From: Flavobacteriales bacterium | Lineage (GTDB): Bacteria; Bacteroidota; Bacteroidia; Flavobacteriales_D; Sanyastnellaceae | Reading direction: 5' to 3' | Length of the DNA stretch: 33,471 nt | Assembly (NCBI GenBank): GCA_029245065.1 | Contig: JAQWQB010000087.1 | Coordinates: 1 to 33,471, forward strand | In this document: positions 8,520 through 33,471 of the stretch, piece by piece | Layout of the letters: every line of letters starts with the position of its first letter | Numbering within the stretch: position 1 is the stretch's first letter | The notes under the pieces: generated by a model | Seen by the model: the letters and a program-made list of their open reading frames with translations, nothing else | Database searches by the model: none | What the model was told of the DNA's origin: nothing | Translations under genes and position numbers: made by a program

Positions 8520-8583
8520 CGTAGTTGATTTTGGTTATAATTAGTGAGAGAAGGTGGTGTAATTTACGAATTTTCAGCGACTT

Positions 8584-10944
8584 CTAAATAATCGTCGCCC
8601 TGATCCGCTCTGTTGACCCATCAACTGATTGAAATTCGAAATAGTAAAAACCGGCGGCAGCGCCTTCTAAACTCAACGTCGAAGGCCCTATCCAATGGAA
8701 ATCAACAACCCTTCCTCTAGCATCATATACCGCTAGGGTTTTACCCTGAGCACCCGAAACATTGAAGAAACCATTACTAGGGTTCGGGAAAATAGCAACC
8801 TCTTCAATTACGCGGATGACATCGTCTTGATTCGAAAAACTAGATGCACCGTTAAAATCTGTTTGCTTGGCTCTGTAATAGCTAACTCCTTCCAATGGGT
8901 GTTTGTCGACCCAATCATAAGACAGCTGTTGATTTGTGGTACCAGCTCCTTGCACCGTTCCAACTGGCTCCCAACTGATTCCATCTTTAGATCTCTCAAC
9001 CGTGAAGAAATCGTTGTTCAGTTGAGAGGAGACCTCCCAAGAGCAGCGTACTTCACTTCCTTGAAGTTGCAGTTCCGCTTCGAAATCGAGCCAATCCACT
9101 GGCAACATCAATTGAGAACACAAATAGAGTGTTATTCCAGAAGTCGCTTCGCACGTGCAAACCTCATCCATTGTCATGGTTAAAGTCTCTGCTACCGCAT
9201 CGAGGTTGTCCAGTATTCCGTCTACTTCTAGAATTACAAATGTTTCGCCAGGCTGAAACGTAACCGAGGTGGGAATCGCATTAAAATCAACCCCCGCCAA
9301 AGCGGTTCCTGTTAACGAAAAATTCACAGTAGTTGCTTCCGTAAATGGTTCTCCATAATTCACAAACACAAATGAACCTCCCTCCTCGCAACTTGCGGGA
9401 GTAGATTGAACACCGCTGTCAGCTGAAGCAGCAGCAGCCACATCAACACCGCCTGAAAAACTCTCTGCCTTCAGGAAAACAGCTGAGTCATAAGAGCTAT
9501 CTCCTGCATCTGCTATGGCAATGGTAATCTGATACGTCTCACAAGGAATGGTATTAATGGTGGCCTGAAGCGGCACCGTGTACCCATCATATTCCACGGC
9601 GGTGCCACCCACATTATCAATGTAGTAAGCAGGATAGTAAGGCGGACAAGCTACTCCATTGTTATTCACGTTGTTTATTGAAACCCAATCCGTCGACCCA
9701 GGAACTACTGCAATATTTGTATTGGTCGCATAGCCTGGTCCTGTTATGAAGAAAGCAAAAGCGTCATTGAAGGAGCAAACAAACTCAGGATATTCATCTG
9801 AAGCAAACACGTAATCAAAGGTAACTTCGGTTGTACTCGCTTCAAAAGCGAAAGTAAATTCTACCGCATCGTATGTAAAGTCCCCAGTCATGGCTTCTAA
9901 CAACAGACTACCTCCTGAGCCGTTTAAACCCGTGACGGAACCCGTTGTATTCGGCCCCACAGCATCAATTGCTGCTCCTGTGGTGAGGATAATCCCCTCT
10001 TCAATCCCAATTGCGTCCCCATTAGTGAAGGCACCTATTGCCGCGTCAGCCCCGTTAAACGTAATGGCTGAAGCGCTCAAACATTCTCCTAAGAACACTT
10101 CTGAAATTAATTGCTGAGCTGAATAAGTGGTAGCATCTACTACAATCGGCTCTGGAGGCTCAGGAATATCGCAATCAATATCACCTACCTGAATAGGAAC
10201 AGCTAATGCAGAGCCAGCAAGCAAGGTTCCAGTGCCAACAACGGCACCATCACTTGCAGTGAGTTGCCAAGTTGCTCCATTCCATCCATCTCCAAAACTA
10301 TCCAATAGGTTCACCGTATGACAGCCTTCGGGCAAGCATAGAAAAGTGTTTGCCGGCGCTAAACCAGTTGCCAACGTTGCTCCAAATTCATCTTGAATGT
10401 TCCATGAAATTTCTCCATCAAACGTTCCGCCGCCCACGACCATGGTTAAACATTCTCCAAAACAGCAATTTGAATCATCTGTATCGGTTGAATTGTAATT
10501 GCAAGCAGTAGGTAAATTACACCCCCCTGCTGCCAAGCAGTTCACTAAGGTCACACCAAAGTACTCAGCACCAGTTGTATTGGTCGCACAGAAATATTGA
10601 TTTAACTGAATGGTATAAGCTCCTGTTTGACTAGCCGTAAAGGTGATGGTTGATTGAAGACCACAAAAATCATCGTTGTAAGCCTCAACGGCTAATGCCG
10701 GATCAAAGAGTGTCAGTTGTGTATCCCATGTTGTTCCACAAGTAGATATGGTATATGTACATCCAGCGGTAGCCTGAAGGGTGAACTGATCTCCACCCCA
10801 TGCGAAATTCAATAACTCTACTGTTTGACCAGGAACTGTGGGCGTGACATCGCCGTAATTCAAACCACCATACCCGCATTGTCCGCTCATGGAAAAAGCA
10901 GACAGCAAAGCCAGTACAAACACCAAGTAGGTAGAGGTTCTCAT
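8584..10944 (-). CDS. T9SS-sorted surface protein with choice-of-anchor L-like domain (paralogue 2)
   Basis: The 786-residue product has a signal peptide (about 1-22). The same N-terminal modules as its downstream neighbour follow (NYGDVTP, WGGDQFTLQA, CNLPTACNYN, DSFGDGWNGA). The middle differs. It first resembles the choice-of-anchor L domain (TYSAQQLISEVFLG, then GIILTTGAA, FVFASDEYPEF and ADAGDSSYDSAVFLKA). A Calx-beta-like stretch then carries VNFSLTGTALAGVDF. The tail matches the neighbour again: LPVDWLDFEAEL, an Fn3-like segment, and a type A sorting domain from IFPNPSNGFF. The downstream paralogue begins 64 bp after its stop, with no clear promoter between, so the two are probably co-transcribed. 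Surface location is well supported; function is unknown. Confidence 0.87.
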   Translation of the reverse strand: MRTSTYLVFVLALLSAFSMSGQCGYGGLNYGDVTPTVPGQTVELLNFAWGGDQFTLQATAGCTYTISTCGTTWDTQLTLFDPALAVEAYNDDFCGLQSTITFTASQTGAYTIQLNQYFCATNTTGAEYFGVTLVNCLAAGGCNLPTACNYNSTDTDDSNCCFGECLTMVVGGGTFDGEISWNIQDEFGATLATGLAPANTFLCLPEGCHTVNLLDSFGDGWNGATWQLTASDGAVVGTGTLLAGSALAVPIQVGDIDCDIPEPPEPIVVDATTYSAQQLISEVFLGECLSASAITFNGADAAIGAFTNGDAIGIEEGIILTTGAAIDAVGPNTTGSVTGLNGSGGSLLLEAMTGDFTYDAVEFTFAFEASTTEVTFDYVFASDEYPEFVCSFNDAFAFFITGPGYATNTNIAVVPGSTDWVSINNVNNNGVACPPYYPAYYIDNVGGTAVEYDGYTVPLQATINTIPCETYQITIAIADAGDSSYDSAVFLKAESFSGGVDVAAAASADSGVQSTPASCEEGGSFVFVNYGEPFTEATTVNFSLTGTALAGVDFNAIPTSVTFQPGETFVILEVDGILDNLDAVAETLTMTMDEVCTCEATSGITLYLCSQLMLPVDWLDFEAELQLQGSEVRCSWEVSSQLNNDFFTVERSKDGISWEPVGTVQGAGTTNQQLSYDWVDKHPLEGVSYYRAKQTDFNGASSFSNQDDVIRVIEEVAIFPNPSNGFFNVSGAQGKTLAVYDARGRVVDFHWIGPSTLSLEGAAAGFYYFEFQSVDGSTERIRATII

Positions 10945-10990
10945 TCAATAGTAACTAAGGCTAGGGCGTAAAAGCCCCAAAAGGTCAGTT

Positions 10991-11022
10991 GCAAGATACG
11001 GATATTTAACTGCACAAGCAAA
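10991..11022 (-). promoter_or_regulatory. full -33/-7 promoter for the tandem T9SS genes
   Basis: On the minus strand TTTG (11022-11019) is followed after exactly 20 bases by TATCTTGC (10998-10991), close to the Bacteroidota -33 TTTG / -7 TAnnTTTG arrangement. It lies about 47 bp before the ATG of the 786-residue T9SS protein. It is the only promoter in the window where I see both elements at the expected spacing. Confidence 0.55.
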
Positions 11023-11055
11023 CGATCGGTAATAACAAGCTTCCTTTGACTTTAG

Positions 11056-11063
11056 TACCTTTC
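11056..11063 (+). promoter_or_regulatory. possible -7 box TACCTTTC for the MazG-like gene
   Basis: TACCTTTC, followed by G, matches the -7 consensus at seven of eight positions and lies 22 bases before the MazG-like ATG. No -33 TTTG is seen at the expected spacing, so this is a weak call. Confidence 0.35.
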
Positions 11064-11085
11064 GATTTCAAATTCACGACCGTTT

Positions 11086-11415
11086 ATGACCATTACAGAA
11101 GCTCAGCAAAAAATTGACCATTGGATTAAGACGTATGGTGTTCGCTATTTTCACCAAACCACCAACATGGCAATTCTTAGCGAAGAAGTAGGTGAAGTTG
11201 CCCGAATCATTGCGCGCCGCTACGGAGAGCAATCGGAAAAACCTTCTGATGCCGAGAAAGATCTCGGAGATGAAATGGCCGATGTCATGTGGGTATTAAT
11301 GTGCCTTGCGAATCAGTGCGACATCAACCTTGAAGAAGCTTTTGAGCGAAACATGAAGAAGAAAACGGACCGTGACCACGACCGCCACATCAACAACCCT
11401 AAACTCAACCCATGA
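11086..11415 (+). CDS. MazG-like nucleotide pyrophosphohydrolase
   Basis: This all-alpha NTP pyrophosphatase of 109 residues is a single MazG-like domain. The metal-binding EExxE motif is EEVGE at 33-37. The second acidic motif is in GDEMADVMW at 61-69, with Glu63 and Asp66 as likely magnesium ligands. Such enzymes hydrolyse non-canonical or damaged NTPs to NMP and pyrophosphate; the exact substrate cannot be predicted. The stop overlaps the next gene's ATG by 4 bp (ATGA), so translation is probably coupled to the Asp-box protein gene. I recall this family directly beside dtd in many Bacteroidota, whereas here two T9SS genes separate them. Confidence 0.92.
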   Translation: MTITEAQQKIDHWIKTYGVRYFHQTTNMAILSEEVGEVARIIARRYGEQSEKPSDAEKDLGDEMADVMWVLMCLANQCDINLEEAFERNMKKKTDRDHDRHINNPKLNP

Positions 11416-14294
11416 TGAGATTAATTTTTGCGCTATCCCTGAGCACCGTAATGCTTTCTTGCGCCTCACTTCAAGCACAACGCAACCAATCTGCACTACC
11501 GAAAACTTCAAGTGAAAGTAGGATGCAAAACGTGTCCCAAAAAGAAGGCATGGCAGCGGCGTCATCTTTGAATGGAATTCCGGCTCGAAACGTTGGACCT
11601 ACTATCATGAGCGGACGAGTAACTGATATTGACGTGAACCCCAATGACCCTTCGCAGTTCTATGTTGCATACGCTAGCGGTGGACTTTGGGTAACCAGAA
11701 ATAACGGAGCTTCCTTCGAACCTGTAGCGGACGAACTACCAACATTAACCATAGGTGACATTGCCGTTGTTTGGGGAGAAACGGAACAATTGTGGGTTGG
11801 CTCGGGTGAAAACAACTCATCCCGAAGTTCATACGCGGGAATGGGACTCTATTTCTCACCAGACGGAGGTGAAACATGGCAACACAAGGGGCTTCCAGAA
11901 AGTCACCACATTGGTCGTATTTCCATCAACCCATCAACACCGTCAGAACTCTGCGTAGCAGTCATGGGTCACTTATACACCCCGAACAAAGAGAGAGGTA
12001 TTTATACATCAACAGACCAGGGCGAAACGTGGAATCAAACCCTTTTTGTGAACGAAGTAACAGGGGCCATAGACTTGGTAAGAGACCCGTTAGACTCAAA
12101 TCACCTCTTTGCTTCTACGTGGGAAAAAAGCAGAGCAGCTTGGAACTTTGTAGAAGGAGGGAATGGTTCAGGAATTTGGGAAAGCATTGACAACGGAGCG
12201 ACCTGGAAGCGTATCACTTCAGAAAACGATTTCCCCGAAGGATCTCGTTGTGGGCGAATTGGGCTTTCTATGTACAATGGACCAAAAGGATTGGCACTGT
12301 ATGCCATGGTAGACAACCAAGAACATAGACCAGAAACGGAAGAGGCGGACACCAATCTAACGAAGCTAGATTTCAAAGACATGGACAAAGCTGCGTTCAT
12401 GCAGTTGGACACCTTAAAACTAGAAGGCTTTTTAGCTTCAAATAATTTTGACGAAGCTTACACCGCGACGTATTTATTTGAACAAATATCTACTGAAGAA
12501 CTGGAACCCATTGCGCTCTACAACTACCTTTATGACGCGAATGAGAACCTTTTCGACACCCCGGTTATTGGACCAGAAGTATACCGTTATGAGGAGGTTT
12601 TTGGAAACTGGAAACGAACACACGAAGATTTCCTAGATGACGTCTGCTACAGCTATGGGTATTATTTCGGTATGCTGCGAGTTCACCCCAAGAACCCTAA
12701 AAAACTTTACATCGCGGGTGTTCCAATCATCACATCTGATGACGGTGGGGCAACTTGGAAGAGCATCCAACAAGCCAACCAACACGTAGACCACCATTCA
12801 CTCTGGATTAACCCCAACCGCGACGGCCACATCATCAACGGAAACGACGGAGGGATCAACATTTCGTACGATGACGGAGAGACGTATTTCAAATGCAACT
12901 CCCCTGCGGTTGGACAGTTTTACACCGTACAAGTTGACAACGCAACCCCTTACAACGTATACGGAGGACTGCAAGACAATGGCGTTTGGGTAGGACCAAG
13001 TGACTATGAAGCGAGCGTTCGTTGGCACCAATCTGGAAGATACCCTTACGAAGAACTCATGGGAGGCGACGGGATGCAAATTGAAGTAGACACCCGCACG
13101 AATCAAACTGTTTACACGGGCTATCAGTTCGGACATTACTACCGCATTAATCGTACAACGGGAGAACAACTTTACATTCATCCCAAGCACGAATTGGGCG
13201 AATTTCCATTGCGGTGGAATTGGCAAACACCTATCCACCTTTCGAAATTCAATCAAGACATTCTCTACATGGCTTCCAATCGCTTCCACCGTTCAATGGA
13301 CGCAGGAGAAACATGGGAAACGCTTTCCGAAGACCTGACTTCTGGCGCCGTTCCAGGTGATGTACCTTTCGGAACGTCCACTTCCATTGATGAATCCCCG
13401 CTTCAATTCGGAAAACTGATTGTAGGAACAGACGATGGACACGTTTGGAAAAGCAGTGATGCAGGGCAAACTTGGACTGAAATTAGCAATGGACTTCCTG
13501 CCAACTACTGGATTTCACGCGTAGCTTACTCCGCCCATGAAGAAGACGTTCTATATGTTACCCTGAACGGATATAGAACAGACGACTTCGCCAGCCTTCT
13601 TTACACCTCATCAAACGACGGACAAACATGGGAAAGGTTAGGCATTGATATTCCAAACGAACCCATCAATGTAGTGCTTGAAGACCCGCTTTACGCCGAG
13701 TTGTTGTTCGTTGGAACAGACAACGGACTTTACATTTCTGTTGACGCTGGTTTGTCATTTGATCTTTATCAAAACGACTTCCCTTCAGTTGCTGTTCACG
13801 ACTTAGTAATTCAGGAGCGTGAAGAAGACTTGGTCATCGGAACCCATGGCAGATCTATTTACATTCTACCGTTAACACATCTTCATCTTGGACTTGCACA
13901 AGAGTCAAATGACCTGCTTGTCTTTGAGACCGAAACAATAAACCACAATGGTTCTTGGGGATCAGCATGGAGCAAGTGGGTAGACGTTTGGGAACCGGAG
14001 ACTTCGGTGGCTATCTTCAACCCAGAAAAAGGGACCGCTACGCTCGAGATCACTTACAACGAACAAGTGATCCACAAAGAAGAGGTTAGCTTAAACAAAG
14101 GGGTGAATTACATCGATTACGACCTGGCCATTGACCCTGAAGCTGTTGAAGAATTCAATCAAACCAAGGCAACTGAGGAAAACGCAGGAAGTGCTGTTGC
14201 TGACAACGAAAAACACTATCTACCTGTTGGAAGTTACACGGTAACGATCAACAAGGAAGGTAAATCTTCATCAACAACGCTAGTAATCGAATAA
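11412..14294 (+). CDS. exported Asp-box (BNR/sortilin-like) beta-propeller protein
   Basis: This protein of 960 residues is built around many Asp-box turns of the S-x-D-x-G-x-T-W type, for example SPDGGETW, STDQGETW, SIDNGATW, SDDGGATW, SMDAGETW and SSDAGQTW. This indicates one or two beta-propellers related to VPS10/sortilin and sialidase-fold proteins, often named glycosyl hydrolase in Bacteroidota. No sialidase catalytic set is evident, so enzymatic activity is uncertain. The N-terminus (VMLSCASLQAQ) could be a lipoprotein signal at the Cys or an ordinary signal peptide cut after LQA. The C-terminus lacks a type A sorting domain. The start overlaps the MazG-like stop, and a second ATG follows one codon later. 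It converges on nadE with 7 bp between stops. Confidence 0.85.
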   Translation: MMRLIFALSLSTVMLSCASLQAQRNQSALPKTSSESRMQNVSQKEGMAAASSLNGIPARNVGPTIMSGRVTDIDVNPNDPSQFYVAYASGGLWVTRNNGASFEPVADELPTLTIGDIAVVWGETEQLWVGSGENNSSRSSYAGMGLYFSPDGGETWQHKGLPESHHIGRISINPSTPSELCVAVMGHLYTPNKERGIYTSTDQGETWNQTLFVNEVTGAIDLVRDPLDSNHLFASTWEKSRAAWNFVEGGNGSGIWESIDNGATWKRITSENDFPEGSRCGRIGLSMYNGPKGLALYAMVDNQEHRPETEEADTNLTKLDFKDMDKAAFMQLDTLKLEGFLASNNFDEAYTATYLFEQISTEELEPIALYNYLYDANENLFDTPVIGPEVYRYEEVFGNWKRTHEDFLDDVCYSYGYYFGMLRVHPKNPKKLYIAGVPIITSDDGGATWKSIQQANQHVDHHSLWINPNRDGHIINGNDGGINISYDDGETYFKCNSPAVGQFYTVQVDNATPYNVYGGLQDNGVWVGPSDYEASVRWHQSGRYPYEELMGGDGMQIEVDTRTNQTVYTGYQFGHYYRINRTTGEQLYIHPKHELGEFPLRWNWQTPIHLSKFNQDILYMASNRFHRSMDAGETWETLSEDLTSGAVPGDVPFGTSTSIDESPLQFGKLIVGTDDGHVWKSSDAGQTWTEISNGLPANYWISRVAYSAHEEDVLYVTLNGYRTDDFASLLYTSSNDGQTWERLGIDIPNEPINVVLEDPLYAELLFVGTDNGLYISVDAGLSFDLYQNDFPSVAVHDLVIQEREEDLVIGTHGRSIYILPLTHLHLGLAQESNDLLVFETETINHNGSWGSAWSKWVDVWEPETSVAIFNPEKGTATLEITYNEQVIHKEEVSLNKGVNYIDYDLAIDPEAVEEFNQTKATEENAGSAVADNEKHYLPVGSYTVTINKEGKSSSTTLVIE

Positions 14295-31403: not shown

Positions 31404-32675
31404 ATGGAGAACTCTGAAATCATCGTAGGGCTTGACATTGGAACAACCAAAATTGCGTGTTTGGTTGGTCGAAAAACAGAACATGGAAAAATCGAGATCC
31501 TCGGATATGGCAAAAGCGAATCTGTAGGTGTTACACGTGGCGTGGTCTCAAACATTGAGAAGACAGTTGCTTCCATTCGCGCTGCGGTGGAAGAAGCTGA
31601 ACAGAATTCAGATGTTGAAATCAAGGTCGTCAATGTAGGTATTGCTGGGCAGCACATTAAGAGTTTGCAGCACCGCGGATTACGCACACGAGATAACCTG
31701 GATGATGAAATTTGCCGAGATGATATTGATGCATTGGTGAATGACATGTACAAACTGGTGATGCTTCCAGGTGAACAGATTATTCATGTGTTACCACAAG
31801 AATACACTGTGGACAACGAACAGGGGATCCGTGACCCAATAGGCATGTCTGGTATTCGTCTTGAAGCGAACTTCCACATCATAACAGGACAGATGGCTGC
31901 TGCGCGCAACATCTATAAATGTGTTGCTCGTGCTGGACTAAAGGTAGACCAACTAATTCTTGAGCCACTAGCCTCTTCTGAAGCCGTTTTGAGCGCTGAG
32001 GAAAAAGAAGCTGGTGTGGCACTTGTTGACATTGGTGGTGGTACGACAGACATCGCAATTTTCCAAGATGGAATTATTCGCCATACGGCAGTTATCCCTT
32101 TTGGAGGCAATGTCATTACAGAAGACATCAAACTTGGCTGCACTATAATGCAGAACCAAGCTGAGCAGTTGAAGCGTAAATTCGGATCTGCTCTCGCAAT
32201 TGAGATGAAAGACAGTGAAATTGTCTGTATTCCTGGACTGCGAGGAAGAGATCCAAAAGAAATTTCGCTTAAGAACCTTGCAAGTATCATTCAAGCAAGA
32301 ATGGAGGAAATCGTAGAACACGTTTACTACGAAATTCGCAGCAGTGGGCTCGAAAAGCAACTTATTGGTGGTATTGTGATTACAGGGGGCGGAAGTCAGC
32401 TGAGACACATCACCCAACTCTTCGAATATGTAACTGGTATGGACTGCCGTATTGGTTACCCGAATGAACACGTAGCGAAAGCACCTAATAAAGAGCTTAT
32501 TTCTCCGCTCTTCGCAACAGGTGTTGGACTCGTTATCAAAGGGTACGAAAATGGGACGTCATCTCCTCAAGAAATGGAGAATGCCGGAACAACTCAACGT
32601 GCAGCCGATGAACGCAAGGGAATGAAGAAATTCCTGAATGCGGTTAGAGACTGGTTCGAAAACGAAGAAGAATAA
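31404..32675 (+). CDS. ftsA: cell division protein FtsA
   Basis: FtsA is the actin-like protein that tethers FtsZ filaments to the inner membrane. The 423-residue protein has phosphate-binding loop 1 (VGLDIGTTKIACLVG, from residue 8), a 1C subdomain, loop 2 (VDIGGGTTD around Asp209) and the adenosine motif GGIVITGGGSQL. The C-terminus KKFLNAVRDWFENEEE is an amphipathic helix and the likely membrane-targeting sequence. It is the last gene of the dcw operon. A strong terminator follows 21 bp after the stop. ftsZ, its expected partner downstream, is absent here. Confidence 0.97.
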   Translation: MENSEIIVGLDIGTTKIACLVGRKTEHGKIEILGYGKSESVGVTRGVVSNIEKTVASIRAAVEEAEQNSDVEIKVVNVGIAGQHIKSLQHRGLRTRDNLDDEICRDDIDALVNDMYKLVMLPGEQIIHVLPQEYTVDNEQGIRDPIGMSGIRLEANFHIITGQMAAARNIYKCVARAGLKVDQLILEPLASSEAVLSAEEKEAGVALVDIGGGTTDIAIFQDGIIRHTAVIPFGGNVITEDIKLGCTIMQNQAEQLKRKFGSALAIEMKDSEIVCIPGLRGRDPKEISLKNLASIIQARMEEIVEHVYYEIRSSGLEKQLIGGIVITGGGSQLRHITQLFEYVTGMDCRIGYPNEHVAKAPNKELISPLFATGVGLVIKGYENGTSSPQEMENAGTTQRAADERKGMKKFLNAVRDWFENEEE

Positions 32676-32696
32676 CATTCATTTCATAGTGCTAAG

Positions 32697-32732
32697 AAAA
32701 GGTTCTTCCATCCAGCGGAAGGGCCTTTTTTT
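32697..32732 (+). terminator. intrinsic terminator after ftsA
   Basis: AAAAGGTTCTTCC (32697-32709) pairs with GGAAGGGCCTTTT (32717-32729) across a 7-base loop. This gives a 13-bp stem with two central U-G wobbles, followed by a run of seven T (32726-32732). It closes the roughly 13.7-kb dcw transcription unit. Confidence 0.88.
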
Positions 32733-32839
32733 GGTTTAAGTCAGTTCAGAGCGCCATCAGGCGTAGTACTTTCTGTAACCCTTTGTAAGGGCTTTCGTAC
32801 AATCTAGGCAACTACTCTATTTGACTTAAAAGAAGCATT

Positions 32840-33373
32840 ATGAATTTTATCACTGTCTTACTCTCAGCCTGGATAGCAACCGCATCTCCAGCAGACAATA
32901 GCCTCAGCCCAATCAACGAAGAACACTTCTTGATTCACGGTGACATGGTAGAACAGGTATATGGCTCAGAAAACAAAGCCAACGCTCCGAACACACGCGT
33001 CATAGTCTATAGAGATAATGAAATTTACGTTGCCTTTACTAGCGACGAACGAGGAGAATACATCTTCAACCTCCCAATTGGACACAAATACGAACTCACA
33101 TATGGTGGCGATGATTTCGTCAACAAACGTGTCGAAATAGACGCTACAAACTGTAAGATTCGCAAAAAAGGCTACACCTTAGAAATGAACATGTCATTGT
33201 TTCGTCCAGTAGGTGAAGTTGACTATTCCGATATGGATGCTGCTCCTGTTGTAGCTTTCAACTACGATCAAGATCTACGCGACATGGTACCAGATTTAGA
33301 TGTGGTAGACGCGATGTGGAGAAAAGTTGAAAAGCTCTACCGTAAGTCAGAAAAGGTAGCCCTCAAAAAATAA
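32840..33373 (+). CDS. small secreted protein with carboxypeptidase-regulatory-like domain
   Basis: The 177-residue product has a short hydrophobic N-terminus (MNFITVLLSAWIATASPAD) that is probably a signal peptide. A beta-sandwich follows (about 31-105: FLIHGDMVEQVYGSE, NTRVIVYRDNEIYVAF, SDERGEYIFNLPIGHKYELTYGG, FVNKRVEI). The pattern resembles the carboxypeptidase-regulatory-like or CNA-B-like domains common in Bacteroidota envelope proteins. The C-terminal third is charged and helical, with PVVAFNYDQDLRDMVPDLD and MWRKVEKLYRK. There is no sorting domain and no catalytic motif. I cannot assign a function. It occupies the place normally held by ftsZ and has its own leader after the ftsA terminator. 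Confidence 0.75.
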   Translation: MNFITVLLSAWIATASPADNSLSPINEEHFLIHGDMVEQVYGSENKANAPNTRVIVYRDNEIYVAFTSDERGEYIFNLPIGHKYELTYGGDDFVNKRVEIDATNCKIRKKGYTLEMNMSLFRPVGEVDYSDMDAAPVVAFNYDQDLRDMVPDLDVVDAMWRKVEKLYRKSEKVALKK

Positions 33374-33374
33374 G

Positions 33375-33471
33375 TTAAGAGAGTAGTCTCTTCACGATTT
33401 CAGAAATAACCTTACCATCTGCCTTCCCGGCCATTTTGCCGCTAGCAGCACCCATTACTTTCCCCATATCT
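33375..33471 (-). CDS. GatB/YqeY domain protein (C-terminal end only)
   Basis: Only the last 31 residues and stop are in the window; the start lies beyond the right edge. The visible peptide, read on the minus strand, includes MGKVMGAASGKM and GKADGKVISEIVKRLLS. It matches the conserved C-terminus of the YqeY family (MGKVMG, G-x-A-D-G-K), whose members resemble the tRNA-binding tail of GatB. The stop (33377-33375) is 1 bp from the stop of the convergent secreted-protein gene. In many Bacteroidota this gene follows ftsZ. Confidence 0.8.
   Translation of the reverse strand, partial: DMGKVMGAASGKMAGKADGKVISEIVKRLLS

Follow-up and report, generated by a model that had tools for sequence, protein, structure and literature searches.

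An ftsZ-yqeY block inverted in place beside the dcw cluster of a Flavobacteriales bacterium

In the genome described here, ftsZ does not follow ftsA at the end of the dcw cluster. A block of ~3.6 kb with four genes, glyoxalase, ftsZ, yqeY, and a small conserved gene termed sgp, is inverted in place next to the cluster. The history that we favour, with a probability of roughly 85%, is a local inversion of this ~3.6-kb block between the terminator after ftsA and the TSUP gene, at a time when ftsZ was already self-standing, together with a separate inversion in the related genus g5. This is a real and well-supported rearrangement of a known cluster, and the possible new regulatory element that precedes ftsZ is its more interesting part.

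The end of the dcw run and its probable continuation on a second contig

The window, that is the whole stretch of DNA analysed, is the entire contig C51 of 33471 bp. It belongs to a source genome of 3.19 Mb in 143 contigs with a completeness of 98.35%, and its right edge is the contig end, which falls inside yqeY. The original prediction described the dcw order up to ftsA as canonical for Bacteroidota, in agreement with the model matches along the run and the Pfam match of FtsA. In an NCBIfam scan of the dcw run, which left out MurC, the proteins MraZ, RsmH, MurE, MraY, MurD, and MurG scored over the model cut-offs, the FtsI-like PBP and FtsW were recognised below them, and the positions of FtsL and FtsQ gave no NCBIfam model match. 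The absence of ftsZ after ftsA was read correctly: ftsA stops at 32675 and no ftsZ lies downstream in the window. The features at the right end of the window are as follows.

31404..32675, + strand: ftsA, last co-directional dcw gene (Pfam FtsA, 8.7e-46; TIGR01174, 1.3e-113)
32691..32735, + strand: predicted intrinsic terminator after ftsA, with a 19-bp stem, a 7-nt loop, and a T tract (fold)
32736..32839, no strand: left inversion breakpoint, in or near the ftsA-sgp gap (gene order of relatives)
32840..33373, + strand: sgp, 177 aa, hydrophobic N terminus (conserved protein)
33375..33471, - strand: 3' end of yqeY, 31 codons and stop (PF09424)

The sgp family is conserved, with proteins of ~175 aa and a hydrophobic N terminus, and regularly occurs next to yqeY in some members of the bacterial family. 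No Pfam match was obtained for sgp, and its best PHROGs E value was only 0.18; the hydrophobic N terminus, judged by eye, suggests that the product may be secreted. A small secreted-protein gene had been placed after the terminator, and the 177-aa ORF is indeed present, but it is part of the inverted block rather than a bystander. In non-inverted relatives with sgp beside yqeY, sgp lies on the strand opposite to ftsA and is convergent with yqeY, and it was thus carried by the inversion.

The YqeY-like gene on the opposite strand is real. Its last 31 codons, at the window end, match positions 114-143 of PF09424 (E 2.2e-6), and its 5' part occupies 13744-14081 of contig C23, up to the end of that contig, and covers positions 2-106. 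In the alignment to complete YqeY proteins, six residues are absent between the two pieces, equivalent to ~15 bases once the partial codons are taken into account. The ends of C23 and C51 do not overlap and no contig of the source genome bridges both; we infer that they join at base level across these ~15 missing bases. The relevant part of C23 (L005) contains the following features.

8547-10334, + on C23: mutS-like gene
10336-11073, + on C23: TSUP gene
11090-11503, + on C23: glyoxalase gene
11775-11796, + on C23: conserved box (upstream alignment)
11909-13657, + on C23: ftsZ (Pfam)

This is the single ftsZ found in the source genome, and its product of 582 aa is matched in both the GTPase and the C-terminal parts (PF00091, 2.4e-45; PF12327, 8.7e-23). 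Because ftsZ on C23 is followed by the 5' part of yqeY, it lies on the minus strand of the window and ends ~440 bp beyond the window edge, 424 bp of which are on C23 and the remainder in the gap. The original prediction had placed ftsZ a short way beyond this edge, in the minus orientation and ending a few hundred bases on. The GC skew is ambiguous as to the replication strand.

Gene order in relatives and the number of inversions

Comparison with the closest relatives, as proposed with the original prediction, reveals a non-inverted ftsA-ftsZ-yqeY order, and the inversion is thereby seen directly. With arrowheads giving gene direction, the source order is ftsA> sgp> yqeY< ftsZ< glyoxalase< TSUP< mutS-like< marR> YceI>. 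The order in G031 and G011 is ftsA> glyoxalase> ftsZ> yqeY> sgp<, three ORFs, and TSUP< mutS-like<, with one additional small ORF ahead of mutS-like in G011. G042 has a different insert in the place of glyoxalase, and TSUP< mutS-like< marR> YceI> follow; G005 (g6) and G015 (g16) display ftsA> ftsZ> yqeY> sgp< TSUP<, with no gene inserted ahead of ftsZ. The genes on either side of the block are collinear with those of non-inverted G031 (L006), G011, and G042 (L007), in which dcw and TSUP-mutS reside on one contig. Instead of sgp, the gene next to ftsA in relatives is glyoxalase, another insert, a lipase-like gene, or ftsZ itself. The proposal that ftsZ-yqeY was inverted as a block is therefore borne out as to the inversion, whereas the block comprises four genes and not two.

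Inverted repeats were considered as the cause of the inversion and set aside, as none above chance was found in the source genome: the longest match at its breakpoints is 8 bp, against a mean of 8.9 in 200 same-size random pairs. Matches of 8-9 bp at most were found in the other genomes tested, figures that carry no random control of their own.

The inversion is not unique to the source genome. Both genomes of genus g5 have the inverted order, G004 within one 229-kb contig and G024 within one 21-kb contig on which the ftsA side alone is visible; the g5 block is without glyoxalase, and its inversion most likely arose independently. In a tree of eight concatenated dcw/YqeY proteins, the source genome, g5, g12, and g15 form one clade (support 100/99), and the source genome falls outside the other six clade members (99/97). 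AU tests rejected the source and g5 as a clade (p-AU 0.004) and, more weakly, the source with g12 (p-AU 0.036), and gave p-AU 0.008 for the source with the two glyoxalase-bearing g12 genomes; the groups were picked after a first, wider tree, in which the branch separating the source genome had a support of 92 only. Two separate inversions on this tree amount to 2 changes, and one inversion with two reversals to 3.

The genes inserted after ftsA bear on the order of events. A lipase-like gene lies between ftsA and sgp in g5, and its counterpart in non-inverted g15, at 54% identity, separates ftsA from ftsZ; the function of this gene is guessed from sequence.

L119:6322-7506, L136:3291-4499, and L127:6404-7546, opposite to ftsA: putative lipase/esterase-like gene directly after ftsA in g5 and g15

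Likewise, the glyoxalase of the source block is situated between ftsA and ftsZ in two of the three non-inverted g12 genomes. Since the lipase-like gene (g5/g15) and the glyoxalase (source/g12) are each common to both orientations, the inserts appear to have preceded the inversion in each lineage, with the inversions following separately. The tree does not unite the source with the two glyoxalase-bearing g12 genomes, and the glyoxalase was accordingly either present in the ancestor, with losses elsewhere, or acquired on two occasions. The g5 inversion is probably independent of that in the source genome, and we infer two events rather than one with reversals.

A single ancestral inversion in the g1/g5/g12/g15 clade, reversed later in g12 and g15 by a block that flips repeatedly, would agree with the alternation of the two orientations across a clade whose inner branches are short and with the nearly identical block ends in the source genome and g5. 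It nevertheless requires the third change, the inserts shared across orientations are easier to accommodate if inversion came last, and the source breakpoints are devoid of above-chance inverted repeats; we regard this history as unlikely. A chimeric C51, misjoined at the ftsA-sgp junction and concealing an ordinary order, could be suspected from a draft of 143 contigs in which C23 and C51 both break within yqeY. However, the TSUP-glyoxalase junction on C23 independently shows the inverted order, so that such an artefact would take two matching errors, and G004 has the same order well inside a long contig, which makes an assembly error very improbable. The idea that ftsZ left the dcw cluster altogether, its place near yqeY being due to chance, draws on the finding that ftsA and ftsZ are on different contigs in 26 of the 100 family genomes that have the two. 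It deserves next to no weight, as the closest relatives ordinarily have ftsZ, yqeY, and sgp side by side and the genes flanking the block are conserved on either side.

According to the favoured history of two inversions, ftsZ would first have gained its own control, the terminator and the inserts would have come next after ftsA, and inversion would have come last, in two lineages. The segment glyoxalase-ftsZ-yqeY-sgp would have turned in place between the ftsA terminator and TSUP, and the same block minus glyoxalase would have been inverted separately in g5. Such an inversion would have been tolerated since ftsZ already formed a separate transcription unit, with a cis-element upstream of it, one terminator downstream of ftsA and, in the source genome, a second downstream of ftsZ. 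In its present position, ftsZ would be expressed on the minus strand, in the direction of the dcw operon, independent of read-through from ftsA.

Terminators after ftsA and the conserved box before ftsZ

The strong terminator proposed to close the operon was recovered at 32691-32735, with a predicted fold of -25.2 kcal/mol (z = -5.5) that none of 200 shuffles equals. A generic scan listed only the inner part of this stem, for the minus strand, and gave 4 terminator-like sites in the region versus 1.6 in shuffles. Within the 130 bp that follow ftsA, a terminator-like hairpin was detected in all 7 clade genomes, in both orientations, and in none of the 21 plain-order genomes of g2, g4, g6, g9, g10, g14, g16, and g18, of which 11 would not be expected to have one because the ftsA-ftsZ gap is 37 bp or less (53 bp or more in the other 10). 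Gap lengths, which use approximate start positions, are about -36 to 37 bp in g2, g4, g9, and g14, 136-140 bp in g16, g18, and G005, 56 bp in G025, 53-145 bp in g10, 335 bp in g21, and 749-2154 bp in g12 and g15. The hairpin is also present in the one g21 genome (G020), though a same-strand ftsZ is just downstream, and in 5 of 15 genomes with a relocated ftsZ. The same search found a second hairpin after ftsZ in the source genome; the generic scan around ftsZ on C23 gave no terminator excess (2 versus 3.2 in shuffles) and left this hairpin unlisted. A 12-pair hairpin at C23:11527-11555 (L005), between glyoxalase and ftsZ, is possibly a further insulator. Read-through from ftsA into ftsZ is presumably absent. 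The original prediction expected the inversion to uncouple FtsZ from MraZ control and from FtsA expression, but it is probably not what separated ftsZ from the dcw operon, since the terminator and the inserts after ftsA already exist in non-inverted clade relatives and the candidate ftsZ box occurs in plain-order g16 as well.

This box, TTWTCAACA-N7-GTGAAT, was identified by upstream alignment 131-135 bp before ftsZ in 9 of 9 genomes of the clade and g16. In strict form it is present at 9 of 47 family loci and at 0 of 15 loci outside the family, the latter being part of 31 order-level genomes. All 12 strict copies in 2.30 Mb of loci are located before ftsZ and represent nine genomes, G031 and G042 being present under multiple locus ids; the reversed-pattern control gave 0. 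A relaxed form, found at 14 of 47 family loci and always at -129 to -136, adds G005 (g6) and the relocated G016, G018, G030, and G041, against a background of 29 in 12,000 random windows, true sites counted in. Related boxes occur at -129 to -132 in genomes of the relocated genera g11, g17, and g19. Even the relaxed box is missing in 33 of 47 family loci, including the relocated g3, g7, g8, g20, and G010 (g11), and it is thus not needed for relocation in general.

The source genome has one exact copy, which precedes ftsZ. A box regulon in this genome was considered and rejected, with 22 places at up to 2 mismatches versus 8 for the reversed pattern; 17 of 20 near-box places inspected are within mechanical ORFs, and two, with 2 mismatches each, lie between ORFs (L184, L192). 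The identification of the box as a DnaA box was also set aside: it bears what we take to be a loose resemblance to the DnaA consensus, and the wider alignment looks dyad-like. Words similar to TTTTCCACA/TTATCAACA, which presumably resemble DnaA boxes, cluster in the two orientations before ftsZ in Mucilaginibacter and similar records, at 84-103 bp in L056, L058, L063, L065, and L074 and at 351 bp in L057. A search for the Bacteroidota -7 motif TANNTTTG, alone or preceded by TTG, gave no hit in the ftsZ upstream regions of 11 genomes, which says little in either direction because 5% of random genomic windows contain TANNTTTG.

ftsZ has the appearance of a transcription unit that is self-contained and portable, with a putative promoter of its own and a box whose function in its control is likewise putative. 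It is a tentative suggestion, held at a little under even odds, that the dyad-like box T[TC]AACA-N7-G(T)TGA ~130 bp upstream constitutes an ftsZ control module bound by a putative dimeric regulator, and that this module freed ftsZ, allowing the block to flip at least twice and to move with the box attached in sister genera.

Distribution in the family and relation to known arrangements

Among 114 family genomes searched, in which the source genome is included as the only one of its genus, 100 have both ftsA and ftsZ at E <= 1e-40. Counted by hand, with the source taken as inverted, the two genes are adjacent on the same strand in 71, inverted in 3 (source, G004, G024), and on different contigs in 26. 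Of these 26, G109 probably reflects no more than a contig edge, and in G041 another contig carries a further ftsA-ftsZ pair, with the genes adjacent; flanking genes were inspected in all but ten of the others. Outside the family, ftsA and ftsZ are adjacent on one strand in 31 of 31 order-level genomes (hand count). In 77 of 80 named loci ftsZ follows ftsA on the same strand, none is inverted, and L053, L066, and L070 have no ftsZ in the stretch examined.

A relocated ftsZ is found beside genes that we take, from their sequences, to be GGGP-synthase-like and hydroxyanthranilate-dioxygenase-like in L160, L167, L172, L163, L170, and L164 (g3, g11, g17). Several relocations or later moves are likely, since g7 and g8 share other ftsZ neighbours and g20 has its own. 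G020 (L133, g21), a genome 78% complete, has the ordinary ftsA-ftsZ-yqeY order and nests in the dcw tree among relocated-ftsZ genera, by re-linking, gene transfer, or misplacement.

The source genome shares the mraZ-to-ftsA order of the canonical dcw cluster and differs from it in the position of ftsZ, which is separated from the run, turned round along with yqeY, sgp, and glyoxalase, and directed towards the cluster. E. coli ftsZ has its own promoters, and this partly own control is a likeness to that predicted for the source; in Bacillus mycoides, the transcription of ftsZ within dcw has reportedly been studied (PMC3762067). In contrast to both, the source has a lineage-specific box at a fixed distance and a predicted terminator after ftsA, which suggest a full separation of ftsZ control. 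That relatives carry almost the same block in opposite orientations is reminiscent of the invertible segments of phase variation, but there are no above-chance flanking inverted repeats and no recombinase among the four block genes. PMC8871954 describes dispersed dcw genes in cyanobacteria and the loss of ftsA and ftsZ from the cluster in Chlamydiae and Planctomycetes, with a reconstruction configured to disallow gene inversions inside the cluster. The broken ftsA-ftsZ link of the lineages with ftsZ outside dcw in that study recurs in the source, where, in contrast to them, the break is a local inversion that keeps ftsZ within a few kb of ftsA. No report of an inverted ftsZ beside dcw was found among the titles and abstract openings listed, drawn mostly from outside the subscription journals.

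The family offers a graded natural series that runs from paired genes, through genes kept apart by a terminator and inserts, to inversion (probably on two occasions) and relocation. ftsA and ftsZ are among the best conserved bacterial gene neighbours and are often thought to be kept together for co-expression. The candidate cis-element may explain how this link could be lost, and the series makes it testable whether co-transcription of ftsA and ftsZ is needed once ftsZ has its own control.
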